Shown: positions 4,098-24,577 of the stretch, piece by piece
Layout: each line of letters opens with the position of its first letter
How positions within the stretch are numbered: position 1 is the first letter of the stretch
Source of the DNA: Prolixibacteraceae bacterium
GTDB lineage: Bacteria > Bacteroidota > Bacteroidia > Bacteroidales > Prolixibacteraceae
DNA: 51,141 nucleotides
Direction of reading: 5' to 3'
Assembly (NCBI GenBank): GCA_019163175.1
Contig: JAFLKN010000024.1
Location: forward strand, 1 to 51,141
Notes under the pieces: generated by a model
The model's database searches: none
Told to the model about the DNA's origin: nothing
The model's input: only the letters and a program-made list of their open reading frames with translations
Translations under genes and position numbers: made by a program

Positions 4098-4202
4098 TAA
4101 TTTAAAGCCAAAACCCAAATTAAAGGTTTATTTACAACAGTTTTCGACAAAATTAAGCTGAAATTTCAACCTTTAGGACTTCGAAAGACTATTAAAAAGA
4201 TA

Positions 4203-4225
4203 GCCCCGACTTAAATGGTCGGGGC
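4203..4225 (-). terminator. Terminator of the seven-gene minus-strand operon
   Basis: An 8-bp perfect GC-rich stem (GCCCCGAC/GTCGGGGC) encloses a 7-base loop. Read on the minus strand it is followed by TATCTTTTTAAT, a T-rich tail, and it lies 64 bases past the last gene of the operon. Confidence 0.78.
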
Positions 4226-4288
4226 CTGAATTTATATCACAATATGAAAATAGAGAGAGAAAAATAATCTCATATGTATCAATTACAA

Positions 4289-7273
4289 CTATCCTTTGTT
4301 GCTTTTGTCATAAATCAGATTTCCTGGAGTTTCCTTAAATATTTGATTAATGATATAATTAAAACGGAATAAGCTAATTACCAACATAAGAAAAATAGTT
4401 ATTACCGTTGGGTTTGATATAAATTTACAAATCAAGTTAGTATCGCAAATAGAATATTGAAAGAATGTAAATCCCGAGAATTTCGGTAATACAAACCCGG
4501 TTAGGAACTCAAAGATAATCTTATTAAAATGACAATAATCTCCAATCAGATAGCTCAAGCCGATACCCGCCAACAAGGTTAATATAATAAAAGAACCCAT
4601 AATGCACTGATATATAACTTTAGTATCAACTCCAAAAGCCATCAATAATCCAATATTTTTCTTTATACTATTCAAATGATTAGACAAGATATTGGATAAC
4701 AGAATAGTAATTATCAGAATGGAAAAAATAAGAAGAAATGCAGATAACATGATAGTAACCCACTTCATGATATTATAATTTTTTATCCTCTCAATATTTT
4801 CCATATTCAAACTGAGATTAGAAATTTTAGATACCTTTTGAGAGAAATTATAAATACTATCATACCTTGAAACATATATATTAGCATTGTCGTAATCTAT
4901 AAGTTTTTTACCTCCAATTGTATTCAAATATGATAGCTGAATCCGATCTTTAGAAATTTTGTTTTCCTTAAGGAACTTAATGACATCAGAACAATTGATT
5001 AAATTATCATAAATTAATTCATTAATTTCCTTAGTTATATTTGGAACACAAATCCGATATTCATATAAATCACTAATATTCCTGATTTGCTTAATAATCT
5101 TATTCTCTTCCACAAATCCAAAAACAGGATCTTTACTATTCTTTGTTTTAATAACCAACTTATGAGCCAACGAAACACTATCAAGCTTATTCATTAAAAT
5201 AGAATCAAATTTGATTAACAATTTTGAATCCATTTTAATCCATAATACAAATTGATCTTTAGCAAGTTCCCAATTATCATCAAAAAATATTGAATGGTAA
5301 AGGTTGTCAAGACAGACGACATCTGCTCCTCCTGGTAACTGATCTACAATACCCCTGATCGGTAGAGGTTGTTTAAATTTTTCACCATTAACATTAATAG
5401 TACGTATTATATAAGTCGAATCCTTTTGCTCTAATGCGGCCAAAGCAGCTCTAGTAACAATAACAGAAAAATCATCATCACCAACAAAATCACTACCATA
5501 AGGCCTTAATGTTTCAATTTGAAGCAAAGTTCCCCTCATTGGATCATCTGATTGCATCGATTTCACTGATAATTGTTTGCTATGACTAGACTCCCAAAAA
5601 TATTCTGCCGTTGAATCTGAATAATTTAATTCTTTGATGAAATTAAAGTTGGTCGACTCCTGTTTAAAGTATGTTATTGTATCAATTCCATAATTCTTTA
5701 TCGATATAGTAGTATCCGGATATGATATATCCTCTTGAACCTTTCCCATCAATCCTTCAATTCCAGGATAGTTTGAGGAGATATTAATTGTATTAACAAA
5801 CGGATTTTTATCTTGCCTAGCAACAAAATCGAGTATGCCATTGGCTGTTCCAATAAGATAAAAAATAAGGAATTGAATAAATAACACAAAGATTAAATTT
5901 TTGGGAAATGTTCGGCCAAAAAACTCTTTCAATTCATTATAAACAAATATATTAAGAAAGTCAGGTTTGAGATTACCATGATTTTTCCATATTTTCTTCA
6001 ATAAGGCAATTTCTGCCTTAATTAAGACTTTGAAAGTCCGAAGTGTTGCCCGATGAAAAAGAAATAGTACATTTTGGAATATTGATTTTTTCGGATCCCA
6101 TAAATCTGATTTGCCTTTATAATTAATTAAAATGCCGTCTTCAACTTGAAATTCATTAATGAGCGCATTTCTAGTTTTACGCATCGGAACTTCACAAACT
6201 ACTTTTTTAATCAAGTCGTCAACATTAACCTGATTCGTATTTGTTTGGGTAGGAAGTGAACTGTATTTTTCAAAAATAACTTCATCAAACTCAACTTTAT
6301 TCGCCACAATATCTTCGGAGAGTCTCAATACAACCTCACTATTATCAGAATTAATGAGAAAATCGATCTTTTCTCTAAAATGTTGTGCATTTGTATTTTC
6401 CCAATCAATCCGATGAAATGTAAACTCCGGAAGAACAGTATACATCTTTCTCCCATTCAAGTTGAGTATTGGTGTTAAAACGATAATTTTATCGGCGAAT
6501 TGAAGTGCTAAATCAATACTATGCGTAACAATAATTGCGCTCCGTCCGGCTTTTTTCTTTATACACTCTTTGGCATATTTTAATACTTCATTTGCGTTGT
6601 GAGGATCCAAGTTTCCTGTTGGCTCATCTCCAAAGAGCACCTCAAAATCTGGGAAAATCCCTCTTCCAAAGGCCATTCGCTGCCGTTCTCCACCCGAATA
6701 TTCACTTGGTTTATTTTTGAAAAACAAAGTTTTCAGATGGAGGTTTTTCACAAGACTTCCAATTATTTTATGGTAACTTTTAGCAAGAGGATTTCCTTTA
6801 ATTAAGTCGGTTAATGCAATATTATCGATCGCTGAAAAGTTGGGCATTAGATAAGTATCCTGAAAAACAAATGAATATCCTTTACCTCTAATCTCATTCC
6901 TAGCTTTACGTTTCATTTTTAAATCACCAGATAGAAAAACAGCAACTAATCGAAGGATTTTGAAAACTAGATTTTTCTGTATTGCATCGGTTTTTGCCCA
7001 CAAAGAATTTAGTCGTATACCTTGAGATTTCCTCTTTTTCTCGACATATTTATCATATTTATTATCGGAATTAAAAAAGACCTCAGAATCATCAGTCATT
7101 GTTTTGTTCATTAGACCCAAAGCCTCAATAAAAGTGGTTTTCCCAGAACCTGAGGGACCTATGATAATAGTCAATTTATCCTTCGGAATTTCAATATTCT
7201 CTGCATAAAAAACAGTAGAATTTTTATACCTACATTCGAGCTTCTTAATAGAAAATTTACTATTCATTGTCAT
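4289..7273 (-). CDS. ABC transporter, ATPase fused to MacB/FtsX-type permease
   Basis: This 994-aa protein has an N-terminal ATPase domain (about 1-275) with Walker A GPSGSGKTT (39-47), Q-loop Gln138, signature SGGER (193-197), Walker B VLFGDEPTG (212-220) and H-loop THS. The span from Walker A to the Q-loop is about 90 residues, roughly twice that of LolD/MacB ATPases, because of a basic insertion (about 65-130). A cytoplasmic linker follows, then one membrane span (about 490-515), a large periplasmic region (about 520-850) and three C-terminal spans. That is the topology of MacB-type mechanotransmission transporters, which use ATP to move or extract envelope substrates rather than pump across a channel. 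At 994 aa it is far longer than MacB (about 650). It overlaps the preceding gene by ATGA, implying coupled translation. No MacA-like adaptor is encoded nearby. The substrate is unknown. Confidence 0.85.
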   Translation of the reverse strand: MTMNSKFSIKKLECRYKNSTVFYAENIEIPKDKLTIIIGPSGSGKTTFIEALGLMNKTMTDDSEVFFNSDNKYDKYVEKKRKSQGIRLNSLWAKTDAIQKNLVFKILRLVAVFLSGDLKMKRKARNEIRGKGYSFVFQDTYLMPNFSAIDNIALTDLIKGNPLAKSYHKIIGSLVKNLHLKTLFFKNKPSEYSGGERQRMAFGRGIFPDFEVLFGDEPTGNLDPHNANEVLKYAKECIKKKAGRSAIIVTHSIDLALQFADKIIVLTPILNLNGRKMYTVLPEFTFHRIDWENTNAQHFREKIDFLINSDNSEVVLRLSEDIVANKVEFDEVIFEKYSSLPTQTNTNQVNVDDLIKKVVCEVPMRKTRNALINEFQVEDGILINYKGKSDLWDPKKSIFQNVLFLFHRATLRTFKVLIKAEIALLKKIWKNHGNLKPDFLNIFVYNELKEFFGRTFPKNLIFVLFIQFLIFYLIGTANGILDFVARQDKNPFVNTINISSNYPGIEGLMGKVQEDISYPDTTISIKNYGIDTITYFKQESTNFNFIKELNYSDSTAEYFWESSHSKQLSVKSMQSDDPMRGTLLQIETLRPYGSDFVGDDDFSVIVTRAALAALEQKDSTYIIRTINVNGEKFKQPLPIRGIVDQLPGGADVVCLDNLYHSIFFDDNWELAKDQFVLWIKMDSKLLIKFDSILMNKLDSVSLAHKLVIKTKNSKDPVFGFVEENKIIKQIRNISDLYEYRICVPNITKEINELIYDNLINCSDVIKFLKENKISKDRIQLSYLNTIGGKKLIDYDNANIYVSRYDSIYNFSQKVSKISNLSLNMENIERIKNYNIMKWVTIMLSAFLLIFSILIITILLSNILSNHLNSIKKNIGLLMAFGVDTKVIYQCIMGSFIILTLLAGIGLSYLIGDYCHFNKIIFEFLTGFVLPKFSGFTFFQYSICDTNLICKFISNPTVITIFLMLVISLFRFNYIINQIFKETPGNLIYDKSNKG

Positions 7274-9888
7274 AATTTCTGAAATATATTTTTACAAAAT
7301 TCATTATCATAAGGGAAATATTCACCACTAATCCACCAAGCTTCAAACAAGTTACTCTGACTGTAATCTTTTGAAATATTTGATATTTGTCCTTTACACC
7401 TCGCAATATCATGAATATATGATCTTTGATCATATTTAAGACTTGAATAATGAGTAAGCGCTCTAGAAATTAACCGGTTTAATTCCGCCTGCTGCTCTGG
7501 AGGAGAAAGCTTTTTCAAATCATTTCCCGTCAATAAATCATAACAATATTTAAATACGTCAGAATGATCTTTCAAATATGATTGCGTAAACTTACTTTCA
7601 TCTGCTAAAATTGATTGAATCATCAATTTGGTTGTAAACCAATCAAAATAATAAACTCCCAACATCTCATCTGTAAAAATTGATCTTGTTGTTAAGTTCT
7701 CCATCTTAATATCTGCCCATTCCTTTCTTCCTTTATTCTGTGTTAAGAAAAGTGAGGCTTCCCTTAACGTAATTTTTCCGAAATCCAACGCATCAACAAC
7801 TTGAAGTCGCTTAACCAAAATATTATACCAAATATTATATAACCTTTCCCTCGCAGAAAGACTATTATTAACCTTAACACTATTATCTGGAATTAATCTC
7901 TCAAGCTGTTCTTTGATTGTATTCAATTCATTTTCCTTAAAATATTGAACATCATTAAATAATTTAAATTTATTTCTTTGATTATTTCTATTTACAGTAT
8001 ATTGGGATAAAAATCCATCAATATAATACCAATTGTTTATTCCATATATTGCTTTTTTATCAAAATCAGGATCCTGTGGATCAATTCTAAGGTATGATAA
8101 CGCACTTCTTGGAATTCGGCAAGGCATATCGACCTTAAAATCAGCCATCGGGGCTTCAATAATAAGTTTTCTTAGCTGTGCCCCAAGAGCTTCCCCAGTT
8201 AATGAGTCGTTCGGGCTAGGAAAAATTAACATACTTGGTATTCTAAGGTCTTCGTTTGGAAATCTTTTATTTCTACCCATATTTTGAATCGAATTCGGTG
8301 GGATAACAATATTTGATCTTTCGCGATAATATCTAATTAGAAGATTTTTAAACTGACTTCGAAATTGGTCATAGGCGGGCTCTACAGTTCTATCTTTTAC
8401 TTGAATAGCACTTATACTGTAATTTTTTCTGAGCAAAATATCCAATACTTCCTGTTCACTAACAAAACTCGGAGAAGTTCTTCGCTGATGACTACTAGCA
8501 TCGCCAATTACAATTACAAATGTCTTTTCAAACTCCCTTATATCATTAAGCCTTTCATTTATATATTTAAAACCCATAAATAATGCTTCAGGTTGATCAT
8601 CTGCCAATCTTATTTGTGGAACTAACCTGTTGTTAATAAAACTAACTATCTCAGTAGAGTTAGTCGTCATTGTAGGACCACTTCTTTCAAATGGCAATGG
8701 ATATGGATCGTCACGATAAATAATTGCATGATATCGCAATCTAATTCGACTACCTTCAATATTTTGGGTTAAACTATTAAAAGCATCTCTTAAGTTATCA
8801 ATAATAGTATTTTTATAGGGTATAATACTATGAGTACCATCAATTAAAAATACAAGATTGATAGTATTTAATTGATCAAGTAAATCTCTAAAACAGGTCA
8901 AAAATACATTTCTTGCAGAATCAGTTCTAAAATCTCCCCCACGAGATAAATACCCTACTTTATAAATAGACTCATTAACAGTGCTTATTATAGGACTTCT
9001 AAAAATAGTTCCCTTAATCCTTTGCGGCTGATATCTAGAAATAGAATCAATATCTTCGTCGTAAAGTGCAGGTATTTGAAATTGTTGTCTACCATTTAGA
9101 TATGCCTCAGCATCTTCTCTGATCCCAAATATTCGAGCAGGTAATTTAGAGTCAAACAACATTCCCCTTTCCTTAACGGCCTCTATATTCCAATTTTTCT
9201 CGAAACACATATTATGATTCCAAGAAGAAGTTCTATTCTTAGGTATCCAACCGATAAGGTTATTTCCAACAAATGATTCTTTTTCTGGGTACCTGCCTAA
9301 TAATAATTTATTATCAAATTCTTTATATACATAAAATATTGTATATACATCATAAGTACCGGTATTATCACCAACATTCATATTGGGGTCTGAATAAAAT
9401 GTTGGATTTTGGTAATTACCAGGTGTATTAAAAATAAATACTTTTCTTGTGTATAACCCATCTATACTTTCATCTAACAAAGGATTATTCTTTGTACGAA
9501 TACAATAACGAGACAATACCATACTTTCTTCTTTAACCCAACCGATCTCATTTGCTGTACCAATAAATTGACCTCCAGCATTTACAAATAACCCTCTAGC
9601 AACTCTTAAACTATTATGAAGTGAATCATAATCAAAAACATAAACTGTTTCATCAAATTTCAACTTGAAATTTGGGATAACCGAGTTAAGGGTTCTGTCA
9701 GAAAAAACCTGATTATCTTTTCTATCTGAAACAACATACCATTTTCTAGTTGTTCGACTATCGGTTCTGCGCCAATGTCCATCTATATAAATGACTCTAT
9801 TTGTTGGTTGAGGAATAACCCTAATTTGACCACTTACTGAAGAAATAATGAAAAGCACAAAAAAAAGTATACTAAAGATTGGTTTCAT
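7270..9888 (-). CDS. Secreted VWA-domain protein, possibly TssR-like
   Basis: The start chosen is the ATG at 9888, two bases after the upstream stop codon, because it begins a clean signal peptide (MKPIFSILFFVLFIISSVSGQ). The mature part is about 850 aa. The N-terminal third contains two SH3-like stretches with G-W-V/I cores (GWVKEESM and GWIPKNRT). A von Willebrand A-like domain starts near residue 343, with MIDAS motif DGTHS (Asp350, Thr352, Ser354) and a later IGDASSH. The C-terminal 300 residues are helical and charged. There is no lipobox, so it is probably periplasmic. SH3-like plus VWA-like segments recall TssR of Bacteroidota type VI secretion (subtype iii), but no other T6SS gene is visible, so this is a weak suggestion. 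It is coupled by overlap to the ABC transporter. Confidence 0.7.
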   Translation of the reverse strand: MKPIFSILFFVLFIISSVSGQIRVIPQPTNRVIYIDGHWRRTDSRTTRKWYVVSDRKDNQVFSDRTLNSVIPNFKLKFDETVYVFDYDSLHNSLRVARGLFVNAGGQFIGTANEIGWVKEESMVLSRYCIRTKNNPLLDESIDGLYTRKVFIFNTPGNYQNPTFYSDPNMNVGDNTGTYDVYTIFYVYKEFDNKLLLGRYPEKESFVGNNLIGWIPKNRTSSWNHNMCFEKNWNIEAVKERGMLFDSKLPARIFGIREDAEAYLNGRQQFQIPALYDEDIDSISRYQPQRIKGTIFRSPIISTVNESIYKVGYLSRGGDFRTDSARNVFLTCFRDLLDQLNTINLVFLIDGTHSIIPYKNTIIDNLRDAFNSLTQNIEGSRIRLRYHAIIYRDDPYPLPFERSGPTMTTNSTEIVSFINNRLVPQIRLADDQPEALFMGFKYINERLNDIREFEKTFVIVIGDASSHQRRTSPSFVSEQEVLDILLRKNYSISAIQVKDRTVEPAYDQFRSQFKNLLIRYYRERSNIVIPPNSIQNMGRNKRFPNEDLRIPSMLIFPSPNDSLTGEALGAQLRKLIIEAPMADFKVDMPCRIPRSALSYLRIDPQDPDFDKKAIYGINNWYYIDGFLSQYTVNRNNQRNKFKLFNDVQYFKENELNTIKEQLERLIPDNSVKVNNSLSARERLYNIWYNILVKRLQVVDALDFGKITLREASLFLTQNKGRKEWADIKMENLTTRSIFTDEMLGVYYFDWFTTKLMIQSILADESKFTQSYLKDHSDVFKYCYDLLTGNDLKKLSPPEQQAELNRLISRALTHYSSLKYDQRSYIHDIARCKGQISNISKDYSQSNLFEAWWISGEYFPYDNEFCKNIFQKL

Positions 9889-9889
9889 A

Positions 9890-12139
9890 TTAATAAATTT
9901 TATATTCCCAATTAATTTGATTGATAGATCTATAACGGTTAAGTAAATCAACTTCTTTAAAATTAAAGTTAGACCAAACAACTACTTTTATTTTATTAAA
10001 CTGGTTTCCAAACACAACTCGTTCCAACTTTGATATAAGTTCAACATTTCGCTTATACATCTGTATGAAATCGCTCATTTGTTCATCAGTGTTAAAAACC
10101 ATATCTTTATATAAATAGAAAACATGAAGATTTATATTTCTTCCTTTTGTTGTCACTTTATTCTGTTTAAAGCTAGCCATAAAATCTTCAATCAGATTCA
10201 TGTCAGGGCTATCCAACTGATCCTGAATTAAAGTTAAATAAGATGATATACCATTACATTTGCCATCTGGATGAATTAACTGAATAGAATTATTTGCAAA
10301 AAGAATTCTATCAGCTGCTGATGATTGCTCACAAAGACTATCAACTCTTTTAGACATAGCGTCATATACTGAAAACATGTTATCTGGATGTGAGCTAGAA
10401 AATTTAAATAACACAACAATATCTAAATCTGGTATTTTTGAAATATTGACCTCGCTATTGTTATTCAAATCAACAGGCAGAAGCATGTTGTCATCCATAA
10501 CCTCAGTACCTCCAGTCCAAAAATTATAATTTATTCGTTTAACTAATTCCAGATGATTTTGGTCTTTGGGAATCTTGACATTTAGAAAATAAATATCTCC
10601 CTTCTTGCTTATTTTACCTTGCTTTAGAACACTCTGATTATTCACTCTAAATTGATATTCAAGAGTCTTCAGGTTCTTCATTATAAAATTTGAAGAAGGC
10701 GATAACTTAATCTTTTCCGAAGTGAGATTACTGTGACTGATTTTATTCTCTTTCAGATTCAATAAGCGTTTGTCGATAATTGGATAATATGGGCTGCGAA
10801 CTGGTGAAATATTGTAGGTCAATCCGAAATTAGCCGAAGCCATTGAAAGGTCTGCCGGCAGCTTCTGAACCAGAGGGGCAATATTGCCTTCTCCCGAACT
10901 AAATGCGCTTGCAGTTTCTTTCAAGGTAACATCGTTCAGAAAGAATCTAAAGCCGACTCCAGCTTCAAGCGATAATTTTTTATTTACTCTCAGATTAATT
11001 CCAGCTGATGTATTAACTGAAGTGAGTGGCTTAATAGAATTGCTATTTTCTGATGTATTAGCCGGATATTTTGTAAACCCATATTCCGGCAGGTCTTTTA
11101 GATCAATCGAAAAATTATTACCGAACTGATAACTACCATAATACTCTGCGGAACCCAGAGTATTTGTAAAGCCCAAATTTGCAGGCACATAATATGACAT
11201 TCCTGCAGAAGCGAAGAAATTAAAAACATTTTTATACCTATAAAACTGCGCTTTAAAACCAACAGGTATTTCAATAAAACTAAGCTTGTTCTTCTGTGAA
11301 AGGTCTTTGTAAATTGCATGCTTCTGAAAATCAGAACCATCAACATCAACCGCATTATACGACTCTGAAAAATCGGTTAAAGCTGTATTAAAATCGCTGT
11401 TGTAATAACCTACCCCCAACTGAAAATAATAACTGAAATACTTTTTACCTGTTAATAAAAAATTGGTTTTCAAATTATAAGCCTGATAATTTAATTTCGA
11501 AATACCAGTAATCTTATCTGATGAACTAATACCTTGCTGAAAATCAAATGTTAAACTTTCGGGTGTGAATCGGGAGGGATATGTAGTTTTTGTAGTTGAA
11601 ACTTTTATAATACTAGCTCTTCTTAGGGTAGAATTATTTGGATCGTTGTATGATAAGAGTGAAATGTAATATGGAACTTCTTTAAATTCATTAACATCCT
11701 TTTTATAATTCTGGTAATAGAGCAATTTATTTAATCTGTATTGATAAAGCTTGTAACCATATCTGGATTGTAGAGTTATTCTTTCTCCAAATTGGAGAAA
11801 CGTGCCTCTTATATTTGTGATGTATTCTTTATCGGTTGATGTAAATACCTGATTGAGTTCGTCTATTTTTAATGGTGATTTAGCCACAAAACCAAATTCA
11901 GGACCAGTGTAATACAGATCATGAATAATTGAAACAGTATCGACAACGTCCTTATGGAAAAGAGATTTATATCTTTCTAAATTCTTAAATGACTCAATCG
12001 TCATGCAAGTATCAAATTCAATAAACATTTTATGAATGTGGTCAGGTATTTTTAATGCATTTTCCTGAGCCCTTACCGGGATCTGACAGCATACAAAAAT
12101 GATTAAAGCTGTTATTATAAGTTTAATTTTTGATGCCAT
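9890..12139 (-). CDS. Outer-membrane barrel protein with C-terminal soluble domain, function unknown
   Basis: This 749-aa protein has a signal peptide (about 1-24, ending IPVRAQ). Residues about 190-445 alternate hydrophobic and polar residues with frequent Tyr/Phe and short turns, as in outer-membrane beta-barrels (for example GYYNSDF, IPVGFKAQFYRY, SLEAGVGFRFFL). About 300 residues of non-barrel sequence follow, including an alpha/beta stretch starting LDIVVLFKFSSSHP that may be a degenerate VWA or Rossmann-like fold. Segments YYGSYQF, NNFSIDLKDL and EYGFTKYP have counterparts in the same order in the barrel gene at 13509-15041, so the two are probably paralogues. It lies 4 nt after the T9SS gene upstream and 1 nt before the VWA gene. 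I do not recognise a named family. Confidence 0.68.
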   Translation of the reverse strand: MASKIKLIITALIIFVCCQIPVRAQENALKIPDHIHKMFIEFDTCMTIESFKNLERYKSLFHKDVVDTVSIIHDLYYTGPEFGFVAKSPLKIDELNQVFTSTDKEYITNIRGTFLQFGERITLQSRYGYKLYQYRLNKLLYYQNYKKDVNEFKEVPYYISLLSYNDPNNSTLRRASIIKVSTTKTTYPSRFTPESLTFDFQQGISSSDKITGISKLNYQAYNLKTNFLLTGKKYFSYYFQLGVGYYNSDFNTALTDFSESYNAVDVDGSDFQKHAIYKDLSQKNKLSFIEIPVGFKAQFYRYKNVFNFFASAGMSYYVPANLGFTNTLGSAEYYGSYQFGNNFSIDLKDLPEYGFTKYPANTSENSNSIKPLTSVNTSAGINLRVNKKLSLEAGVGFRFFLNDVTLKETASAFSSGEGNIAPLVQKLPADLSMASANFGLTYNISPVRSPYYPIIDKRLLNLKENKISHSNLTSEKIKLSPSSNFIMKNLKTLEYQFRVNNQSVLKQGKISKKGDIYFLNVKIPKDQNHLELVKRINYNFWTGGTEVMDDNMLLPVDLNNNSEVNISKIPDLDIVVLFKFSSSHPDNMFSVYDAMSKRVDSLCEQSSAADRILFANNSIQLIHPDGKCNGISSYLTLIQDQLDSPDMNLIEDFMASFKQNKVTTKGRNINLHVFYLYKDMVFNTDEQMSDFIQMYKRNVELISKLERVVFGNQFNKIKVVVWSNFNFKEVDLLNRYRSINQINWEYKIY

Positions 12140-12143
12140 GGTA

Positions 12144-13505: not shown

Positions 13506-13508
13506 ATT

Positions 13509-15041: not shown

Positions 15042-15051
15042 AACTAATATT

Positions 15052-16779
15052 TTATAAGCGTATTAATGACTTAACAAACAACTTTGTATCAGATTTTACA
15101 GTGATAATATATAGACCCGACAGAAATCTATTCTTATTAATTTTGGTTCCATTCTTGAATGATTCCTGATAAATGCTTCTTCCATTGATATCAACGATAT
15201 TCAGGGTAAATCTTGATTCCATATCGCTGGCAATACAAATATCGCTGGCATCTACAAAACATCTGATATTATTTTCTTTTCCATGAAGTTCAGTAGGTTT
15301 TAAGTCAATAAATGCGGCTTTTGCAATATTCCAATTGTTGTTAAACGAACAGGGATAAGACCGGCTAAAACAAAAGCCTTTGTTGTAGGCAGTCTCAACG
15401 TAGTATATTTCACCCGATTTTGCACCTGCTGCATTTATATAATAAGGTTTACTTGTTTCTCCTAGTTGAGTCTCTACATTACCTTGTACTTTTATCCATC
15501 TGTATATATTTGCTGAAGTATCTGAACATGCCAAAATCTTCATTTCAGAATCAATAAATATTGGGAACGATTTCTTTGTAGCAAGTGTATCTTTTACATG
15601 TACAATCAGTTCTTTTTTGTAAGAGCATCCATTTTTACTTGTGGCTGTAACCACTACTTTTTGCGATGGGGTAACTTTTGACCAATTGATTAATACAGAA
15701 GCATGGTTTCCGGAAAGTTTTATATCATTACTCATCCATTGATAGGAATAATTTGATGTATCAGGAGCTGAAATCCAATAGTAATTATCAGGGCTATTCT
15801 TGCAAACAATTTGAGAACCAACTATTGAAAAATCATATTCAGGCTCAACCGTAATATTTTGCGTTGAAGATGTAATGATATTGCCCTGGTATAAAAAATT
15901 ATATTGGATTGGCATTTTCCCTTCAACACCATAAGGATTAAATATTACAGATTTTCCAACAATACCTCCACCACTGTAATACCCTCCATTGGGTTCCCCG
16001 TATGGGCCAAGATTAATATTTCCATTCAAGGGGCATACACCTTTTGTCAGATTGTCGGGTAAAATAAATTTAATGTAAAATATTGAAAGCTTAACAACTT
16101 CGCTGTATTCAGCAGGAGCGGTAGCAATCAATCCCTTTCCTTTGGCCCTTATATACACTATATTTTCTCCAGGGACCAGATTTTTTTTGTCAATTAAAAT
16201 ACGACCATCAGTACCAGACATAGTTGTAAAATTCCCAATCGAGTTGCCTATCTTATATTCCAATGAATCAATAGCTTTATTGCCTCTTCTGGCAACATCA
16301 ACAATTTTTTGTACTGCCTTAAAATCAATTTGAACATCTGCCAAATCACGAATTACGAACACATTTTTATCTTTTAACGGAGCAATCGAGACACCACTCT
16401 GTTGAACCAGAATGCTTTCGATAGTTGGCCGTAAAAAAATAAATTTAATATCGGTTGTACACGAATTGTATAAAACTGTGAGAAGGTTTGTATCCTTCTT
16501 TAATTCTAAAGTCTCAATAATTAATTCGGAAGATAAATAATCAATTACTTTGACTTCAAATTTCTTATACGCCCCACCGTTTAAGGAATACCGAAACTCT
16601 TCAGCTATTGTTTTAGTGCAATTCGCAGAAATTTTATAATCTCGGTATATAATGTTGTCATAAGAATATTCGACAGGAGTCGGATTAATAAGCTTTTTGT
16701 CAATGCTGCATTGCTGAGAAATTCCCTGGAGAGAATAAAAAAGCAGCACCAATCCTATTAGGAAAAATTTCTTATTCAT
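15052..16779 (-). CDS. T9SS type A cargo with Ig/PKD-like repeats
   Basis: This 575-aa protein has a signal peptide (MNKKFFLIGLVLLFYSLQG). The middle holds Ig/PKD-like units with the recurrent YSYQWMSNDIKLSG type of segment and paired Cys. The C-terminus (about 490-575) is a T9SS sorting domain with the MESRFTLNIVDINGRSIYQ strand, FLSGLYIITV and a terminal basic strand VKSLIRL, although the usual PNP start is not clear. A glycine-rich GEPNGGYYSGGGIVG stretch lies near residue 260. It starts 5 nt after the giant beta-helix gene and ends 10 nt before a barrel gene. No catalytic motif is visible, so a structural or adhesive surface role is the most economical guess. Confidence 0.75.
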   Translation of the reverse strand: MNKKFFLIGLVLLFYSLQGISQQCSIDKKLINPTPVEYSYDNIIYRDYKISANCTKTIAEEFRYSLNGGAYKKFEVKVIDYLSSELIIETLELKKDTNLLTVLYNSCTTDIKFIFLRPTIESILVQQSGVSIAPLKDKNVFVIRDLADVQIDFKAVQKIVDVARRGNKAIDSLEYKIGNSIGNFTTMSGTDGRILIDKKNLVPGENIVYIRAKGKGLIATAPAEYSEVVKLSIFYIKFILPDNLTKGVCPLNGNINLGPYGEPNGGYYSGGGIVGKSVIFNPYGVEGKMPIQYNFLYQGNIITSSTQNITVEPEYDFSIVGSQIVCKNSPDNYYWISAPDTSNYSYQWMSNDIKLSGNHASVLINWSKVTPSQKVVVTATSKNGCSYKKELIVHVKDTLATKKSFPIFIDSEMKILACSDTSANIYRWIKVQGNVETQLGETSKPYYINAAGAKSGEIYYVETAYNKGFCFSRSYPCSFNNNWNIAKAAFIDLKPTELHGKENNIRCFVDASDICIASDMESRFTLNIVDINGRSIYQESFKNGTKINKNRFLSGLYIITVKSDTKLFVKSLIRL

Positions 16780-16784
16780 ATCTT

Positions 16785-19700
16785 TTATATAATTATTAAT
16801 TGTTTTGTGTATGATTTTGTCTTCGTAACAACGCGCAGTATATATGGACCTTTAGGTAATTCTGGAATATCTAGTTTCGATATTTTACCCATATAATTAT
16901 CGGTTAGCTTCGACTGATGTAAAACCTTGCCCAGCATAGACAATAACTCAACCAATACCTCCTCATCTTCAATGTAGACCTTCAGATTAATCACTTTTGT
17001 GGCAGGATTGGGGAATATATCAAATGACTGAGTAAGCGAAGTTGATTCTGAATTTGTAATACGGCTGGGTTCCGGTCTCAAAATTGAATTACAATCGTCG
17101 AAACGATCTGGTCCGCCAGTAATCCCCATATCATTCCGAGGTAAACCACCAAAGATTAGTGGGGCACGATCGTTAAATGCAGGATCAGGATTTCCGGCGT
17201 CTTTACATACCGAGTTAAACTCTAAACAGAAGCTATTTTTTTCAATCTTGGGTGCTGTTGAAATACAAAAATTACCGACTGAACCGAGATTCTCAATATT
17301 CGAATATTCAAGATCTAATTTTATATTTTCAGGAACTTTATACTGCGGCCTACCCTTTGAGCCATAGTTATTCAAATGAAGAATTGAATTTGCTATTTGG
17401 TAAGTATTAGGAGATTGTTTCGGCTCAACATAAAAGCCATAATAATTATGGTCGTATATGGTGCAATTCGTAAGCTTAAAAGTATAAGAGTTTGCATCTT
17501 TATCCTGATTTAGCGGATTGACCATTATCGCAGAGCCTGTTGCTTCTTTTGAATCGTTTTGATAAAACAAACAATTCACCAACCAGGAATCTGAACTTCC
17601 GGCATTGAAATACACAGCACCAGCTCCGTTCGATTTATTTTGAATGAATTTATTTCGCGTAAATCTTGATTTACTATTCTCCAGAAAAACAGCACTTCCT
17701 TTGTAGGAACTATTTTCCTTAAACGTATTATCCAGAAGACTTATACCCTCAGGTTTTAAATCAATTAAAAATAAACCACCACCATCGGAATATGTATCTT
17801 GCAGCTCATTTTTCTGGAAAATCGAATTCTTTATTCCGCCAGATGCTTCGGAAATATAAAAACCACCCGCTTTTGATTTGGCGATGTTATAATCTATCTC
17901 ATCGTTATCAATTTGAATATTTCCATTCCTGAAGTACAATGAACCTCCAGACTCCGCATAATTGGCAAAATAAATATTCCCATTAAATGTGGCAGCATTA
18001 GCGTTTGTCAAATAAACAACCCCTCCAAAACCTTCATTTGATCTGTTATTGTAACTTTCGTTGTTGGTAAATTTGAATTCATTTACAGCCGAAACAAAAA
18101 CGGCTCCACCTGAATTTTTACTGAAAATACCATCAAATTTACAATCATCGATTTTTACTTTATTGATATTTTTAAGGAACAAAACTCCACCGTTTCCGCC
18201 TGAAGTAAATGTCCTTTTCAAAAGGTCATCATTATTTTTACAGGAATCATTCGCAAAAATCAAAGAGGAACGATCCAATCCGTTTACATCCTCAAAATAA
18301 ATTAATCCGCCATTTCGCCCAGAATAATTGTGATAGAAATAATTATTGACAACCCTGGCACTATCAATAGTTCCCTTTATATACAAAACGCCACCGTCAA
18401 GATCAGCATAGCAATTTTGCACTGAATCTGCTACTGAATTTAAAAATTCCAGATTCTTAATTGCAATGCCATCCTTAAAGCTTCCGAAGCCTCCAAACAG
18501 AGCTGAGTTTGATTTAATTTTTGTTGAAATGAAACTTATTGAATCCATTTTCATCACATCAAAAAATACTCCTGCACCCGATCCAGTGCTCATGCATTTG
18601 ATAAAATTATCGTCTTCGATTAATGTAGAAGTGATCTGTGGAGCATTGAAATAGTAGATACCTCCACTATTTACAGCGGTCCCGCTAAAGCTGTTTTTTG
18701 TCGACAAGAAGCGATTTAGATTACCAGTATGAAAACTAAATGCTCCAGTATTTCCTGATTCTGCTTTTCCAACTGTATTCTCAGAAACAACAAGTGAACC
18801 GATAGTATTCAATCCGGCGTTATAATTTACCAAAGCACCATTGCCTTTACTGGCAATACTTTCAGCAATCTTACCTTTGGAAAATTCAAATTTTGACAAT
18901 CCTGTTTTACTTGTATTTATAATTTCAATTACCCCACCACTTGAGGCTACCGTTCTATTGATTGAGTTACCATTGAATCGAATTAACTCCGAAAAACAGC
19001 CCTCGCCAAAAATCAATCCGCCAACACTGTCAGCACGAAGGCTGTTCATTTTATTATCACTAAAATCAAGAACTTTTATTTCATTTCGATCGTCGCTATT
19101 TTTTACGAAAACCAAACCACCTGATTTGCTGACTTTAAATAAGTTGTAATTCAAAAAATCATTATTCTGAATACTAATATTTTCAAGTTTGTAGATCCCA
19201 TCAACATATAAAACACCTCCATTTGTGGCAACCAGATCAGACTTTGGATTATCAAACAGGTTGTTGGAAATCGTAATACTTTTTGACTCGCCTCCATTAT
19301 TTTTAATGCAGACAATACCACCATTGCCACCAACATTAACATTGCTTTTTATCTTATTGCTATTAAATTCAAAATTCTGATTTAAAGTACCATTAAAATG
19401 GATCAAGCCTCCATCGGCCACAACATTAGCAACCGAATTAATTGTATTTCCATTTACAATGAAGGCATTACTACTGCGCTTCAATACACCTTCAAAAGAA
19501 AGAAATGCTCCTGAATTTGCTTCCAAAACGCCAGCGAAAGTATTATTTGTCAACTTTAACTGATCGGCATGATTTATAACTTTGATATAAGCAAGTCCAC
19601 CATTTCGCTTAGCCTTGGCCTTTTCTTTAACTTCTATTCCTGAAACATTAAATGTTGAGATTGAATCAGAAAATACGGCACAAAAGCCACCGTTTCCGGC

Positions 19701-22700
19701 CGCTTCAGTCGAATTAATTTTTTCGGTAAGTATATCTAAATGATTAATATAACCTACTTCATAATTATAAACGCCACCATTACCATTTGCAAAACAAGAA
19801 TTAAGATATGAATTTGCTGAAATCGTTAACTGATCAAGAAAACTTCCATTATAATGCACGAAACCTCCTGAGCCATTTGAACTAATTGATTCGATTGTAT
19901 TTCCGAATATTTCAAAATTTACAAGTCCATTTTTTGCATTATTTGAAATACTAAATGCACCACCATTATTAAACGAATTGGCTTTTAAGCTTGAATTCTG
20001 CTTAATTACAACTGAGTTTGAAATACCTCCATTGTAAGAAATAAAGCCGCCACCGTCTCCAATCGATTTTGAGGTAACTGAATTATTAATGCATTTCAAA
20101 TTAGTTAGGCTCCCATTCAAATTTTTAAAGAAGATAGTACCACCAGATCCTTTGGAAGATGCTTCTAATAAGGTATTATCTTTAAAAATAAAGTCACCGT
20201 TTGTTACCCCTGTTCCTTCATAATAAAGTAAACCACCAGAGCCATTGCTCGATTTTAAATTTCCAAATGCATTCCCATCTAAATTAAAATTGATCAGACC
20301 GTTTTTTATCGTGTTGTTGATATAAAAAGCGCCACCATCATTCAGCGCAATGGAATTCAATTTCGTATTTTTTTCAATTTTTACATTGCCTGAAATTGCT
20401 CCAACATAATACAGTAAACCTCCTGAACCTCCAACACTGGTAGTCTTCACATCATTGTTCGAGTATTCCAGATTCGTAAATATGCCATTTTGATTCTTAT
20501 AATAAATGCTTCCACCCGAGCCTTTGGAAGAAGCTTCTGCAACCGAATTACCTATAAAAATAAAATCACCACTTGTCAGGCCATCGCCTTCGTAATAGAG
20601 CAATCCGCCAGAGCCATCGCTCGATTTTATGTTTCCAAATACGTTATCAGCTATATTGAAATTCAGCAAGCCATTTGCAACTGTATTTTTAATACAAAAA
20701 GCGCCTCCATCGTTCATCGAATTAGAATTCAATTTGGTATTCTTTTCAATTTTTACCAAACCTGAAATTGCCCCGGCATAATACAGTAAGCCTCCTGAAC
20801 CCCCTAAACTAGTAGTTTTAACATCATTGGTAGAGTATTCCAGGCTAGCTAACTTCCCTACGGCCAAATTTTCAAAACAGAGGGTTCCTCCATTTTTACC
20901 GGCTGTGGAACTGGCTATGATATTGTCTTTAATTGTAAGATTACCGTTGGCTTTTCCGGTATAATAGAGCAATCCGCCGGAACCGTTGGTAGATACAAAG
21001 GTCCCGAACTGTTTGTTGTTGATGATACTAAATCCGCTCAAACCAATAACATCAGTATTGTTGATGTAAAACGCACCACCATTGGTCCCCGAGGTTGAAT
21101 TCAGTTTGGTATTTGCTTCAATCTTAATTGCTCCTGAAATAGCGCCGTCATAATAAATTAATCCGCCTGAACCAGCCGCCAACGAGGATTCCACACTATT
21201 ACCCGAATATTCCAAACCAGTCAATATTCCACTCGGGTTTTTGAAGTAAACAGTTCCTCCATCAATTCCGGCTTTGGAACTTGCGATGGTGTTTCCGCTA
21301 AAAATAAAATCAGAATTTACTTTTCCTGAATAAAAAAGTAATCCCCCCGAACCCTTAGCTGATTCAAAAATTCCGAGTTGTTTATTGTTGATGATACTGA
21401 ATCCGGTTAAGCCGGTAAGATCAGTATTATTAATATAAAATGCGCCACCGCTAGTTCCGGCGGTAGAATTCAACTTATTATTTGCTTCAATTTTAATTAT
21501 TCCGGAAATTGATCCGTTGTAATACATCAATCCACCCGAATTCTCTGATTTAGTGGAAGTTATTGCATTACCATAGAAGCTAAAATCACTTACTTTACCA
21601 TTTATATTTTCAAAGCAAATTGTTCCACCATTTGTTTTAGCCGAAGAACTTGTAATTGTATTTGATTTAAAATTGAATACACAATTATTAACATTGCCCG
21701 TATAATACAACAGCCCACCAGCTCCTATTAGCGATTCTGTTTTCTCAAATTGGTTATTATCATTAATGTTAAGGCCGATCAAGCCATTTGTATCATTATT
21801 ATTAAAGAAAAATGCACCACCACTTAATGAAGAAGTCGAGTTAAGCTTTTTATTTCCCGTAATATTAATTGAACCTGAAATTGCTCCAAAAGAATACATC
21901 AAACCTCCTGAACCTCCTTCACTAGTAGTCTTCACATCATTGTTCGAGTATTCCAGATTCGTAAATATGCCATTCTGATTCTTATAATAAATGCTTCCAC
22001 CCGAGCCTTTGGAAGAAGCTTCTGCAACCGAATTACCTATAAAAATAAAATCACCACTTGTCAGGCCATCGCCTTCGTAATAGAGCAATCCGCCAGAGCC
22101 ATCGCTCGATTTTATGTTTCCAAATACGTTATCAGCTATATTGAAATTCAGCAAGCCATTTGCAACTGTATTTTTAATACAAAAAGCGCCTCCATCGTTC
22201 ATCGAATTAGAATTCAATTTGGTATTCTTTTCAATTTTTACCAAACCTGAAATTGCCCCGGCATAATACAGTAAGCCTCCTGAACCCCCTAAACTAGTAG
22301 TTTTAACATCATTGGTAGAGTATTCCAGGCTAGCTAACTTCCCTACGGCCAAATTTTCAAAACAGAGGGTTCCTCCATTTTTACCGGCTGTGGAACTGGC
22401 TATGATATTGTCTTTAATTGTAAGATTACCGTTGGCTTTTCCGGTATAATAGAGCAATCCGCCGGAACCGTTGGTAGATACAAAGGTCCCGAACTGTTTG
22501 TTGTTGATGATACTAAATCCGCTCAAACCAATAACATCAGTATTGTTGATGTAAAACGCACCACCATTGGTCCCCGAGGTTGAATTCAGTTTGGTATTTG
22601 CTTCAATCTTAATTGCTCCTGAAATAGCGCCGTCATAATAAATTAATCCGCCTGAACCAGCCGCCAACGAGGATTCCACACTATTACCCGAATATTCCAA

Positions 22701-24509
22701 ACCAGTCAATATTCCACTCGGGTTTTTGAAGTAAACAGTTCCTCCATCAATACCAGCATTGGAACTTGCTAAGGTATTTCCGCTAAAAATAAAATCACCA
22801 TTAATGTTTCCCGATAAATAGGAAAAGCCACCAAAGCCTTTAATTGCATTCGTTGAACCGGTTATTTCATTCCTAATAATAGAAATTTTCACGTTGGATG
22901 AAACTTGAGCCGAATTAGTTTGCAGACTGAAAGCACCACCGTTTTGATCAGCTGATGAGAAAATAGATTTGTTATCAGCTATTGAAATATTTCTAATATT
23001 GCCAACATTAATATTTCCTATTCCACCGTTACCGCTATTATCTTTATCAGTATAATTCTCTTTACCCAAACCATGAGTATTCACTTCATAATTGAAATTT
23101 TCGATCATACCAATATCCGTAAAACTAAAGACCCCACCATTTCTGCTGGAATGATTGCCAAGTATCTTTTTTGAATTTTTGAAACTTACAGTATTTATTA
23201 AACCAGAACCTGTAAAACTTAACACTCCACCGTTACCCGACAAAGCTTCGTTGTATTCAAACGAGGAAGAATCAATCAACAAAGAGTTTAATGACTTGAG
23301 CCCTTTTGCAAAAATTGCCCCTCCATTTGAAGAAGAGTTATACTTAAATTCACAGTTTATAATATTTAAATAATCCACATCTGAATCACTCCCCAAAATC
23401 CGAATTGCTCCACCCTCGGTTTGTCCATTTGAATTTTGGCCAAAAAAGGAATTTGCTACTTGAAATTTTGATTGGCTATCACTTGGCAGAAAAGTAATTG
23501 CTCCACCCCCACTATTATTTTGGAAAGTACAATTGTCTAATAAAGTTGAATTGCTTCGGATAAAGACGCCACCGTATTCCCCAATATTATCAACGACTCT
23601 GATGTTTTTTGCCATCAAAGAACTTAGTGTACTTGGATTAATAAAAATGCTACTTAGCTCAACTGTATTTCGCTCAATTATATCCCCATCCAATTGAATT
23701 GCCTGAATAAAATTGGAATCATCAATTAAGATTGCGCCGGCCGGATGTACCGAACTTGTTGCATTGGCAAAATTATAACTGCAATTCGTAAATCTATTTC
23801 CTTTAAAATCCAACAAAGTACATTCATTTATCGACAGCATGCGAAAACCGGTAAATCCAATATCTGGCTTTTCTTTACCCGAGAAAGTATTGTTGTAACA
23901 CTTGAAGCTGTTAGTTATACTGCCGTGTGTAAAAGATATCCCAAAGTCTTCACAGTTCTCAAACGTATTTCCACTTATAACAATTGAATCTTCATAAACA
24001 TCCTTCAAGTATATAGCTCCCGACTCATTGTTTAAAAAGGTACAATTGGAGATTCCTTCAAATTCGGAATGAATAAAACTTAAAGCTCCTCTGAAATTAT
24101 CAAGACCAACAGTATTTCGAAACGAGCAGAGGGCAAAATCGGGTGAAGGTGCATTCTCAAGGAAACTAATTCCTCTCCAGGAGAACTCGCTATCTAAACA
24201 TGTAAATACTATTTTTCTTAAGGCATCTCCTTTTGCTATAAGTTTTCCTTTAACTTCTAATCCTATTTTATTTCTAAAATTTAGTGTTGCCCCAGCTTCT
24301 ATTAACAAGGTATCGCCCTTCTTAATGTATATGGCATCGTCAACAATATAATTAAAGTCGTTTGTTAATGTCCCCTTTAAAAATCCGGTTAAATGCTTAT
24401 CTGGTAGATTAGTAGATTCAAGAGTTATACTGCTTCCAAAAGTATCTTGGATTGCAAATGCAGTTGTTATGAAAAGCATAAAAACTGCTTTAAAAATAGA
24501 TTTGCTCAT
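16785..24509 (-). CDS. Giant repetitive beta-helix surface protein with T9SS sorting domain
   Basis: This 2574-aa protein has a signal peptide (about 1-26). An N-terminal parallel beta-helix segment (IYIKKGDTLLIEAGATLNF) resembles autotransporter or polymorphic outer-membrane-protein caps. More than 2000 residues of short repeats follow, built on G-G-x-[FILV]-x-[FY] turns alternating with S/N-rich N-N-x-F segments (for example SGGLLYY then NGGAFYINN). They predict a very long right-handed beta-solenoid. The C-terminus carries FPNPATKVINLKVY and LPKGPYILRVV, a T9SS type A sorting domain, so it is exported across the outer membrane and probably surface attached. Roughly 830 bp of the repeat region occur twice almost without change. 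It is the first gene of the operon and has a candidate promoter at 24570. Adhesin or sheath-like roles are plausible, and no enzyme motif was seen. Confidence 0.85.
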   Translation of the reverse strand: MSKSIFKAVFMLFITTAFAIQDTFGSSITLESTNLPDKHLTGFLKGTLTNDFNYIVDDAIYIKKGDTLLIEAGATLNFRNKIGLEVKGKLIAKGDALRKIVFTCLDSEFSWRGISFLENAPSPDFALCSFRNTVGLDNFRGALSFIHSEFEGISNCTFLNNESGAIYLKDVYEDSIVISGNTFENCEDFGISFTHGSITNSFKCYNNTFSGKEKPDIGFTGFRMLSINECTLLDFKGNRFTNCSYNFANATSSVHPAGAILIDDSNFIQAIQLDGDIIERNTVELSSIFINPSTLSSLMAKNIRVVDNIGEYGGVFIRSNSTLLDNCTFQNNSGGGAITFLPSDSQSKFQVANSFFGQNSNGQTEGGAIRILGSDSDVDYLNIINCEFKYNSSSNGGAIFAKGLKSLNSLLIDSSSFEYNEALSGNGGVLSFTGSGLINTVSFKNSKKILGNHSSRNGGVFSFTDIGMIENFNYEVNTHGLGKENYTDKDNSGNGGIGNINVGNIRNISIADNKSIFSSADQNGGAFSLQTNSAQVSSNVKISIIRNEITGSTNAIKGFGGFSYLSGNINGDFIFSGNTLASSNAGIDGGTVYFKNPSGILTGLEYSGNSVESSLAAGSGGLIYYDGAISGAIKIEANTKLNSTSGTNGGAFYINNTDVIGLSGFSIINNKQFGTFVSTNGSGGLLYYTGKANGNLTIKDNIIASSTAGKNGGTLCFENLAVGKLASLEYSTNDVKTTSLGGSGGLLYYAGAISGLVKIEKNTKLNSNSMNDGGAFCIKNTVANGLLNFNIADNVFGNIKSSDGSGGLLYYEGDGLTSGDFIFIGNSVAEASSKGSGGSIYYKNQNGIFTNLEYSNNDVKTTSEGGSGGLMYSFGAISGSINITGNKKLNSTSSLSGGAFFFNNNDTNGLIGLNINDNNQFEKTESLIGAGGLLYYTGNVNNCVFNFKSNTITSSSAKTNGGTICFENINGKVSDFSFYGNAITSTKSENSGGLMYYNGSISGIIKIEANNKLNSTAGTSGGAFYINNTDLTGLTGFSIINNKQLGIFESAKGSGGLLFYSGKVNSDFIFSGNTIASSKAGIDGGTVYFKNPSGILTGLEYSGNSVESSLAAGSGGLIYYDGAISGAIKIEANTKLNSTSGTNGGAFYINNTDVIGLSGFSIINNKQFGTFVSTNGSGGLLYYTGKANGNLTIKDNIIASSTAGKNGGTLCFENLAVGKLASLEYSTNDVKTTSLGGSGGLLYYAGAISGLVKIEKNTKLNSNSMNDGGAFCIKNTVANGLLNFNIADNVFGNIKSSDGSGGLLYYEGDGLTSGDFIFIGNSVAEASSKGSGGSIYYKNQNGIFTNLEYSNNDVKTTSVGGSGGLLYYVGAISGNVKIEKNTKLNSIALNDGGAFYINNTIKNGLINFNLDGNAFGNLKSSNGSGGLLYYEGTGVTNGDFIFKDNTLLEASSKGSGGTIFFKNLNGSLTNLKCINNSVTSKSIGDGGGFISYNGGISNSVVIKQNSSLKANSFNNGGAFSISNNAKNGLVNFEIFGNTIESISSNGSGGFVHYNGSFLDQLTISANSYLNSCFANGNGGVYNYEVGYINHLDILTEKINSTEAAGNGGFCAVFSDSISTFNVSGIEVKEKAKAKRNGGLAYIKVINHADQLKLTNNTFAGVLEANSGAFLSFEGVLKRSSNAFIVNGNTINSVANVVADGGLIHFNGTLNQNFEFNSNKIKSNVNVGGNGGIVCIKNNGGESKSITISNNLFDNPKSDLVATNGGVLYVDGIYKLENISIQNNDFLNYNLFKVSKSGGLVFVKNSDDRNEIKVLDFSDNKMNSLRADSVGGLIFGEGCFSELIRFNGNSINRTVASSGGVIEIINTSKTGLSKFEFSKGKIAESIASKGNGALVNYNAGLNTIGSLVVSENTVGKAESGNTGAFSFHTGNLNRFLSTKNSFSGTAVNSGGIYYFNAPQITSTLIEDDNFIKCMSTGSGAGVFFDVMKMDSISFISTKIKSNSALFGGFGSFKDGIAIKNLEFLNSVADSVQNCYADLDGGVLYIKGTIDSARVVNNYFYHNYSGRNGGLIYFEDVNGLDRSSLIFANDSCKNNDDLLKRTFTSGGNGGVLFLKNINKVKIDDCKFDGIFSKNSGGAVFVSAVNEFKFTNNESYNNRSNEGFGGVVYLTNANAATFNGNIYFANYAESGGSLYFRNGNIQIDNDEIDYNIAKSKAGGFYISEASGGIKNSIFQKNELQDTYSDGGGLFLIDLKPEGISLLDNTFKENSSYKGSAVFLENSKSRFTRNKFIQNKSNGAGAVYFNAGSSDSWLVNCLFYQNDSKEATGSAIMVNPLNQDKDANSYTFKLTNCTIYDHNYYGFYVEPKQSPNTYQIANSILHLNNYGSKGRPQYKVPENIKLDLEYSNIENLGSVGNFCISTAPKIEKNSFCLEFNSVCKDAGNPDPAFNDRAPLIFGGLPRNDMGITGGPDRFDDCNSILRPEPSRITNSESTSLTQSFDIFPNPATKVINLKVYIEDEEVLVELLSMLGKVLHQSKLTDNYMGKISKLDIPELPKGPYILRVVTKTKSYTKQLIII
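20441..21266. repeat. Long direct repeat, copy A (inside the giant gene)
   Basis: This 826-bp stretch recurs at 21926-22751, an offset of 1485 bp (495 codons, in frame). By eye only one base differs (within GCCATTTTG versus GCCATTCTG), and divergence sets in on both sides. Older, weaker copies of the same units lie nearby, for example around 20160-20260. Confidence 0.9.
21926..22751. repeat. Long direct repeat, copy B (inside the giant gene)
   Basis: This is the second copy of the block at 20441-21266, in the same orientation and reading frame. The intervening 659 bp (21267-21925) are related but clearly diverged, so the pair looks like a recent in-frame segmental duplication or a gene-conversion tract. 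Confidence 0.9.
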
Positions 24510-24569
24510 ACTTATAGATTTGAGGCCTTTTACACGAATATTGGATTAGATAAATTTAAAAGATTTTTT

Positions 24570-24577
24570 CAAAAATA
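24570..24577 (-). promoter_or_regulatory. Candidate operon promoter, -7 box TATTTTTG
   Basis: Read on the minus strand, the box matches TAnnTTTG exactly and lies 60 bases before the start of the giant gene. Transcription would start near 24563, giving a leader of about 54 nt. The -33 region is T-rich but has no exact TTTG. It is the only good match in the gap upstream of the seven-gene run. Confidence 0.48.

Follow-up and report, generated by a model that had tools for sequence, protein, structure and literature searches.

Type VII ATP-binding cassette (ABC) systems, such as MacB, FtsEX, and LolCDE, act by mechanotransmission. The other described system of immediate relevance here is the TssNQOPR membrane complex of T6SSiii, a type VI secretion system (T6SS), in which, according to the sections available from Bongiovanni et al. 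2024 (PMC10781749), TssR is a lipoprotein with a VWA domain and TssP carries PKD domains, with TssR of B. fragilis binding the PKD protein TssP. The same sections state that homologs of the T6SSiii membrane complex were undetected outside T6SS loci and call the origin of the complex hard to trace, no T6SS-independent locus encoding the set. Here we analyze a seven-gene operon of a Prolixibacteraceae bacterium (order Bacteroidales) that combines a TssR homolog with an ABC protein, two predicted outer-membrane barrels, and three proteins bearing the C-terminal domain of the type IX secretion system (T9SS). The operon lies in a window (the whole stretch of DNA analyzed) of 51141 bases, which is one entire contig (JAFLKN010000024.1) of a 5.9-Mb draft genome that is 96% complete. 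That it encodes a T6SS-free trans-envelope complex, running from the ABC protein through the TssR homolog to outer-membrane and surface parts, is a proposition that we regard as evenly balanced.

The operon and its conservation

The seven genes span positions 24509 to 4289 of the minus strand, all start with ATG, and are separated, in operon order from GIANT to ABC, by 5, 10, 3, 4, 1, and −4 nt. The operon comprises the following features:

24570..24577, minus strand: candidate −7 promoter element TATTTTTG, weak
16785..24509, minus strand: GIANT, 2574 aa; secreted right-handed beta-helix/solenoid with a T9SS type A C-terminal domain
15052..16779, minus strand: T9A, 575 aa; T9SS C-terminal domain and a weak PKD-type match below the cut-off
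13509..15041, minus strand: BARA, 510 aa; predicted outer-membrane beta-barrel
12144..13505, minus strand: T9B, 453 aa; T9SS C-terminal domain and weak Ig/PKD-type matches below the cut-off
9890..12139, minus strand: BARB, 749 aa; barrel homologous to BARA, with a C-terminal extension that has Ig-like and alpha/beta parts in a low-confidence model
7270..9888, minus strand: VWA protein, 872 aa; near-full-length TssR homolog, signal peptide without a lipobox motif
4289..7273, minus strand: ABC, 994 aa; fused nucleotide-binding domain and FtsX/MacB-type permease
4202..4226, minus strand: intrinsic terminator with a 9-pair stem containing 7 G-C pairs

A preliminary description of this DNA had pictured seven close or overlapping minus-strand genes ending in a terminator, encoding three T9SS cargo proteins (one of them giant), two barrels, a VWA protein, and an ABC protein of MacB topology, and all of this is borne out. 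For the VWA protein gene, the earliest start of the open reading frame is a TTG at 9981; the ATG at 9888 yields a signal peptide and agrees with relatives. Because terminator-like sites in the same half occur at chance level (4 found versus 4.3 expected), the terminator at 4226-4202 counts by its strength and placement. The single candidate promoter of the preliminary description fared less well: the element at 24577 is the sole exact occurrence of TAnnTTTG (0.3 expected), which we take to be the Bacteroidota −7 motif, but it is weak and no TTTG is present at the −33 spacing from it.

The gene order GIANT–T9A–BARA–T9B–BARB–VWA protein–ABC is shared by seven genomes belonging to several families, namely, the window genome, G050, G686, G731, G862, G888, and the Bacteroidales metagenome-assembled genome (MAG) record JAGLWB010000328; G686, G731, G862, and G888 represent four different families. 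The ABC protein is fused in four of the operons and split into two genes in three, and four copies of GIANT are complete, whereas three are truncated by the ends of fetched stretches or contigs (two of the four complete copies were read across the boundary between two fetched stretches). When profiles were built from the six other genomes, with the window excluded, the window gene at the same position was the best match for each of the five genes tested (T9A, 3e-63; T9B, 2e-56; BARA, 2e-18; BARB, 2e-43; VWA protein, 5e-93). GIANT without its C-terminal domain matched the three other complete copies (four pieces, 2e-27 or better) and none of the three cut ones. The co-occurrence check suggested in the preliminary description thus reveals a recurrent order rather than homologs scattered without synteny, and the idea of one functional unit extending from the cytoplasm to the cell surface is well supported by that order. 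A weaker line of support for the same idea is that neither T9A nor a neighboring lytic transglycosylase, described below, was found at full length elsewhere in the genomes searched.

For T9A, this statement is based on a draw of 393 genomes of the order, with three candidates scored for most of the genomes listed. Full-length matches of more than 600 bits were obtained in 5 genomes, all of them operon copies used for the profile, and the next matches were the G888 operon copy, which is outside the profile (100 bits), and a protein from a genome without a TssR match (92 bits). At E 1e-8, matches appear in 281 of the 393 genomes owing to the widespread T9SS domain contained in the profile, and full-length scores alone were therefore used. 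The T9A and transglycosylase profiles were both built from operon copies, which match by construction, so that the absence of others is the informative part.

TssR-like proteins are encoded in 13 of 140 genomes of the family, the window genome included, and in none of the 20 other listed genomes of the same genus. Across the 393 genomes of the order, 27 match the TssR-like profile at 1e-10, comprising 10 of the TssR–ABC type, 4 with T6SS loci, and 13 that match over the VWA region only, the latter judged from the rows listed; the seven-gene order is present in six of the 10 genomes of the TssR–ABC type. An initial survey of VWA proteins across the phylum (39 of 395 genomes, with neighborhoods fetched for 10 of the 39 besides the window genome) was set aside, as it mixes TssR with other VWA proteins.

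TssR homology and the other components

The VWA protein of the operon is, by profile comparison, a near-full-length homolog of TssR. Between a profile of the seven operon VWA proteins and one of 12 TssRs encoded at T6SS loci, the alignment covers 698 columns (probability 100, E 5e-52, 16% identity). The T6SS loci were assigned via neighboring genes: a TssP-type PKD protein adjoins TssR in 11 of the 12 loci, these proteins aligning with one another and having PKD domains recognized by Pfam in one case, the other neighbors were judged by eye, and TssN was confirmed in the three T6SS genomes tested, home to four of the 12 TssRs. The window protein matches the Pfam model TssR_VWA (PF20782) with 7.7e-7 and 28.9 bits (cut-off 25.7), and its match to the TssR N-terminal domain (0.0076) is under the cut-off. 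Among 29 sequences scanned (the window protein, 26 others from TssR–ABC loci, and two from the hybrid loci described below), the VWA model was found in all 29, the N-terminal model in 25 (best match 1.8e-23), the C-terminal model in 12, and the middle model in 10. A search of PDB sequences with the VWA-protein alignment gave no match at E 1. Thus, the lack of a recognized name noted in the preliminary description holds for the operon as far as searched, but not for its VWA/SH3-like member. Judged by sequence similarity, the present loci contradict, for TssR, the published statement that homologs are missing outside T6SS loci; no description of such TssR-like proteins was found in the open-licence PMC literature.

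A second likeness to T6SSiii is that the T9B family profile has a PKD-type domain in common with TssP (96 columns, probability 93.9), which the T9A profile does not share. In other respects the operon departs from the TssNQOPR complex, since it encodes an ABC ATPase, two barrels, and T9SS surface proteins, and its TssR homolog has no lipobox motif. By a simple motif, a lipobox is recognized in none of the seven proteins of the seven-gene loci, in 1 of the 28 TssR-like proteins from outside T6SS loci, and in 8 of the 12 T6SS TssRs. As a marker of T6SSiii we used TssN (PF17555), because the VipB sheath model missed the T6SSiii controls too. TssN was found in all three T6SS controls and in none of the seven seven-gene genomes, which are drafts, one of them 76% complete; a separate scan of 13 TssR–ABC genomes, likewise drafts, did not detect it either. 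Comparison of the window proteins with the 12 T6SS loci gave no TssO, TssN, or tail-type match.

Instead of T6SS genes, the non-T6SS TssRs are linked to the ABC gene, which occurs no more than three genes downstream of TssR in 27 of 28 non-T6SS cases, in one of two hybrid loci, and in none of the 12 T6SS loci; four of the genomes first entered the data set via the ABC search and were then also recovered by the TssR search. The sole non-T6SS exception (L152, 9496-11982) is the second TssR copy of G686, which stands alone with no ABC gene beside it. The TssR–ABC pair is the more widespread core.

The window ABC protein has a nucleotide-binding domain recognized by Pfam (ABC_tran, 1.2e-13) and four predicted transmembrane (TM) regions, with about 350 residues between TM1 and TM2 and with TM2–4 following. 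The predicted arrangement, that is, a nucleotide-binding domain and TM1, a large periplasmic domain, and TM2–4, is that of type VII (MacB/FtsX/Lol) proteins. An FtsX Pfam match in the ABC protein of a relative is weak (0.13) and below the cut-off. In contrast to MacB, FtsEX, and LolCDE, the ABC protein is not accompanied in the operon by any recognized partner of the MacA, EnvC, or LolA type, and its partner by synteny is the TssR homolog. PADLOC anti-phage models gave no match among six window proteins scanned, a set without ABC and GIANT, and the matches of the ABC protein of a relative were discounted as they look like generic ATPase matches.

GIANT matches the Pfam families Beta_helix (8e-9) and Por_Secre_tail (4e-11), and NCBIfam and Pfam together returned T9SS-domain and Beta_helix matches only. 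Its GG-rich repeats (modal spacing 29 residues) and FxxN motifs both exceed shuffled expectation and recall chlamydial polymorphic membrane proteins, for which these motifs are given in the available sections of PMC11166332 and PMC10715098; unlike those proteins, GIANT carries a T9SS C-terminal domain. That domain is shared with the SprB-type giant T9SS adhesins of gliding Bacteroidota, and a TssR–ABC locus of the Portibacter type has an SprB-repeat giant T9SS protein upstream. In Portibacter-type genomes, the further partners of the pair are another T9SS protein and one of 504 aa, and the named strain Portibacter marinus has a TssR–ABC locus whose surface genes differ from those of the operon. 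GIANT differs from SprB-type adhesins in being a beta-helix protein encoded beside a TssR homolog and an ABC protein. It also contains a direct duplication at an offset of 495 aa, with near identity over about 300 aa, which points to a repeat that has recently expanded or undergone gene conversion.

T9SS C-terminal domains are present in three window proteins (GIANT, T9A, and T9B), that of T9A falling slightly under the Pfam cut-off and over the NCBIfam cut-off, and the Pfam domain is detected in 19 of the 21 C-termini of the seven operons (E 0.01). Consistently, SprA_N, a marker of the T9SS translocon, was found in all 17 genomes tested, including six of the seven operon genomes. Neither BARA nor BARB matches a Pfam family above threshold. 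However, family profiles of the two, built from relatives with the window excluded, are homologous over 266 columns (E 9e-25), and window BARA and BARB each match the profiles of the barrels of relatives. The single match of BARB in a PDB sequence search (0.38) was treated as chance.

A proposed trans-envelope complex and its alternatives

In the mechanism that we propose for a T6SS-free complex, the inner-membrane ABC protein, resembling type VII (MacB/FtsX-like) proteins, would hydrolyze ATP and move its large periplasmic domain, and this motion would be passed to the TssR-homologous periplasmic VWA protein, so that force rather than substrate would be transmitted. The VWA protein would relay the motion to the PKD/Ig protein T9B and to the two outer-membrane barrels, which may hold or gate the display of the T9SS-exported giant beta-solenoid, the putative target, and of the second T9SS protein. 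In two genomes, the membrane-anchored lytic transglycosylase may open peptidoglycan for the complex.

Several observations weigh against this mechanism. The strongest, as far as a mechanism centered on GIANT is concerned, comes from pair-only genomes. Among the 12 other carriers of the TssR-like protein in the family, G050 has the full seven-gene order, and in the remaining 11 the stretch seen upstream of the TssR-like gene revealed no T9SS or barrel gene (10 of these loci were mapped; the contig of G118 carries little else). The ABC gene follows the TssR-like gene in nine of the 11, and the contig ends first in the other two. Hence, the core either is able to act in the absence of these surface proteins or has its targets at other sites. 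More broadly, searches with a profile made in this analysis detected a T9SS C-terminal domain upstream of TssR in 7/7 seven-gene loci, 6/14 other TssR–ABC loci, 0/6 pair loci, which form one close group, and 2/2 hybrid loci, and a related barrel is encoded upstream in 3/14 of the other TssR–ABC loci. The likeness between T9B and TssP extends over 96 columns of a common domain type. Mechanotransmission is borrowed by analogy from FtsEX and MacB, and the structure models are poor (pLDDT 51 for ABC and 53 for BARB), so that their Foldseek matches lend weak support only. Finally, the window has its transglycosylase gene on the strand opposite to the operon, and none was seen beside the other five operons. 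The preliminary description had envisaged a machine that builds, displays, or senses a large surface solenoid. Because of the 11 family genomes without surface genes found upstream, building a solenoid does not define the machine, and its function is something we infer.

The main rival is a tripartite exporter, in which the ABC protein would pump a peptide or lipid as in MacAB-TolC, with the TssR-like protein as the adaptor, the barrels as the exit duct, and the T9SS proteins as accessories. It draws on the joint encoding of the ABC protein, a periplasmic protein, and barrels, and on the Foldseek ranking of the low-confidence ABC model, in which full-length MacB chains come first. However, Pfam matches in the seven operon genes include no MacA-type adaptor or TolC-type duct, the best matches of the low-confidence BARB model are outer-membrane barrels of, for example, the OmpT, NspA, and OmpW types, and all six pair loci tested lack a related barrel upstream. 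We consider such an exporter unlikely.

A role in delivery or quality control akin to those of Lol and YbbAP, whereby envelope proteins or lipids would be extracted or passed on by the ABC protein and then carried by the TssR-like protein to the barrels and T9SS cargo, appears quite unlikely. In its favor, LolD proteins are the best matches of the ABC profile among PDB sequences, and LolCDE and YbbAP are listed as type VII ABC systems in the part of PMC12646458 available to us. Nevertheless, the match of the nucleotide-binding domain reflects a shared superfamily, and in the available sections of PMC10781749 TssR of T6SSiii is a part of the membrane anchor and is not described as a carrier.

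We regard as decidedly improbable the possibility that the operon is a degenerate T6SSiii remnant that retained TssR and lost the tail. TssR homology is compatible with such an origin, as are the two hybrid loci, which combine TssR, a T9SS-type protein, and a barrel with T6SS genes. The first, L109 from a Saprospiraceae MAG, encodes a T9SS-type protein, a barrel, a PKD protein, TssR, and a fused ABC protein, with TssO, TssN, and a TssK-like gene coming next; here, the T9SS-type protein and the barrel were identified with profiles made in this analysis, and the TssK-like gene was so called because it resembles a gene that was itself named by eye. The second, L112, has genes for TssO, a T9SS-type protein, a barrel, a PKD protein, TssR, and PAAR on a contig that stops too early for an ABC gene to be visible. 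TssN was found in both hybrid genomes. Against a remnant, the gene order is kept in seven genomes; the ABC protein, T9SS proteins, and barrels do not figure among the known T6SS components; and proteins of the seven-gene loci match T6SS loci via TssR, PKD-type, and generic regions only. Furthermore, in the TssR tree, the 12 T6SS TssRs form one group (100/99), and the 28 non-T6SS sequences, from several families, lie together on the opposite side of that branch (100/99), with the hybrids as the basal branches of the T6SS side. Nested inside the seven-gene sequences is a single group made up of the six pair sequences, an arrangement that fits loss of the surface genes. The root of the tree is a midpoint and the branch leading to the window sequence is long, so that any direction of change read from it is tentative.

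A chance assembly of unrelated envelope genes, which might be entertained given that most of the parts are of unknown function and that the giants and barrels are divergent, is contradicted by the order conserved in seven genomes and by the TssR–ABC linkage in 27 of 28 cases, and its likelihood is close to negligible.

Returning to the trans-envelope complex, a broader and somewhat doubtful proposal is that TssR–ABC loci encode a general class of Bacteroidota ATP-driven trans-envelope machines acting on surface proteins, from which the T6SSiii anchor was recruited. If so, the hybrids L109 and L112, with a T9SS-type protein and a barrel beside T6SS genes and, in L109, also an ABC gene, would be descendants of the transition. 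T6SS-free TssR operons with their own ATP motor, together with the hybrid loci, make the origin of the T6SS anchor directly testable, and the loci point to a route by which Bacteroidota could drive cell-surface events from the cytoplasm.

Flanking genes and other TssR–ABC loci

Upstream, the neighbor of the operon is a divergent gene of the arginyl-tRNA-synthetase type. Downstream, two convergent genes encode an SLT transglycosylase and an OmpA-family protein:

3090..4097, plus strand: SLT, membrane-anchored lytic transglycosylase with an SLT domain, convergent with the operon
1589-2920, plus strand: OmpA-family protein with a barrel and TSP3 repeats, just upstream of the SLT gene

The SLT gene was left out of the gene set listed in the preliminary description. 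In G050, its counterpart (45% identical) is located directly downstream of the ABC gene and on the same strand, and a profile of the two, searched at E 1e-20 against 140 genomes of the family, found no third genome; both carriers have the operon. The stretches fetched around the remaining five operons, of which that of G862 ends soon after the ABC gene, showed no SLT gene. A linked peptidoglycan hydrolase, as FtsEX-like control of such an enzyme would require, is thus seen at 2 of the 7 operons.

Other TssR–ABC loci have diverse neighbors. In G589, the pair is accompanied by SrfB, a Virul_Fac (SrfC-type) protein, and a subtilase; in L086 and L107, three tandem TssR-like genes and a split ABC immediately precede genes for SrfB, a 329-aa protein, a Virul_Fac (SrfC-type) protein, and a subtilase. 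FHA and PP2C proteins are encoded with the pair in G644 and an FHA–ABC protein in L116. The pair is adjoined by FHA genes in L085 and L116 and by a PP2C gene in L085; PP2C was called by eye in L116, L149, and L151. These gene contents suggest possible phosphorylation control in the FHA/PP2C branch. Upstream of a Portibacter-type locus, L095 carries PAAR, STAND NTPase, ThiF, JAB, VWA-FHA, and ion-channel genes, and in L110, from a Paludibacter MAG, a tubulin-like (Tubulin_2) protein is encoded at 14358-16850, five genes downstream of the TssR-like gene. The TssR–ABC contig L108 is labeled Erysipelotrichaceae, but its gene groups with Bacteroidota in the tree, and the contig is thus probably mis-binned. 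Most of the mapped pair loci (L026-L036) contain, upstream of TssR and beside a purB-like gene, a second ABC gene that is msbA-like (both named by eye) and was taken to be outside the system. In L027, the pair is followed by an M48 peptidase gene recognized by Pfam, and the same gene was identified by eye in other pair loci.

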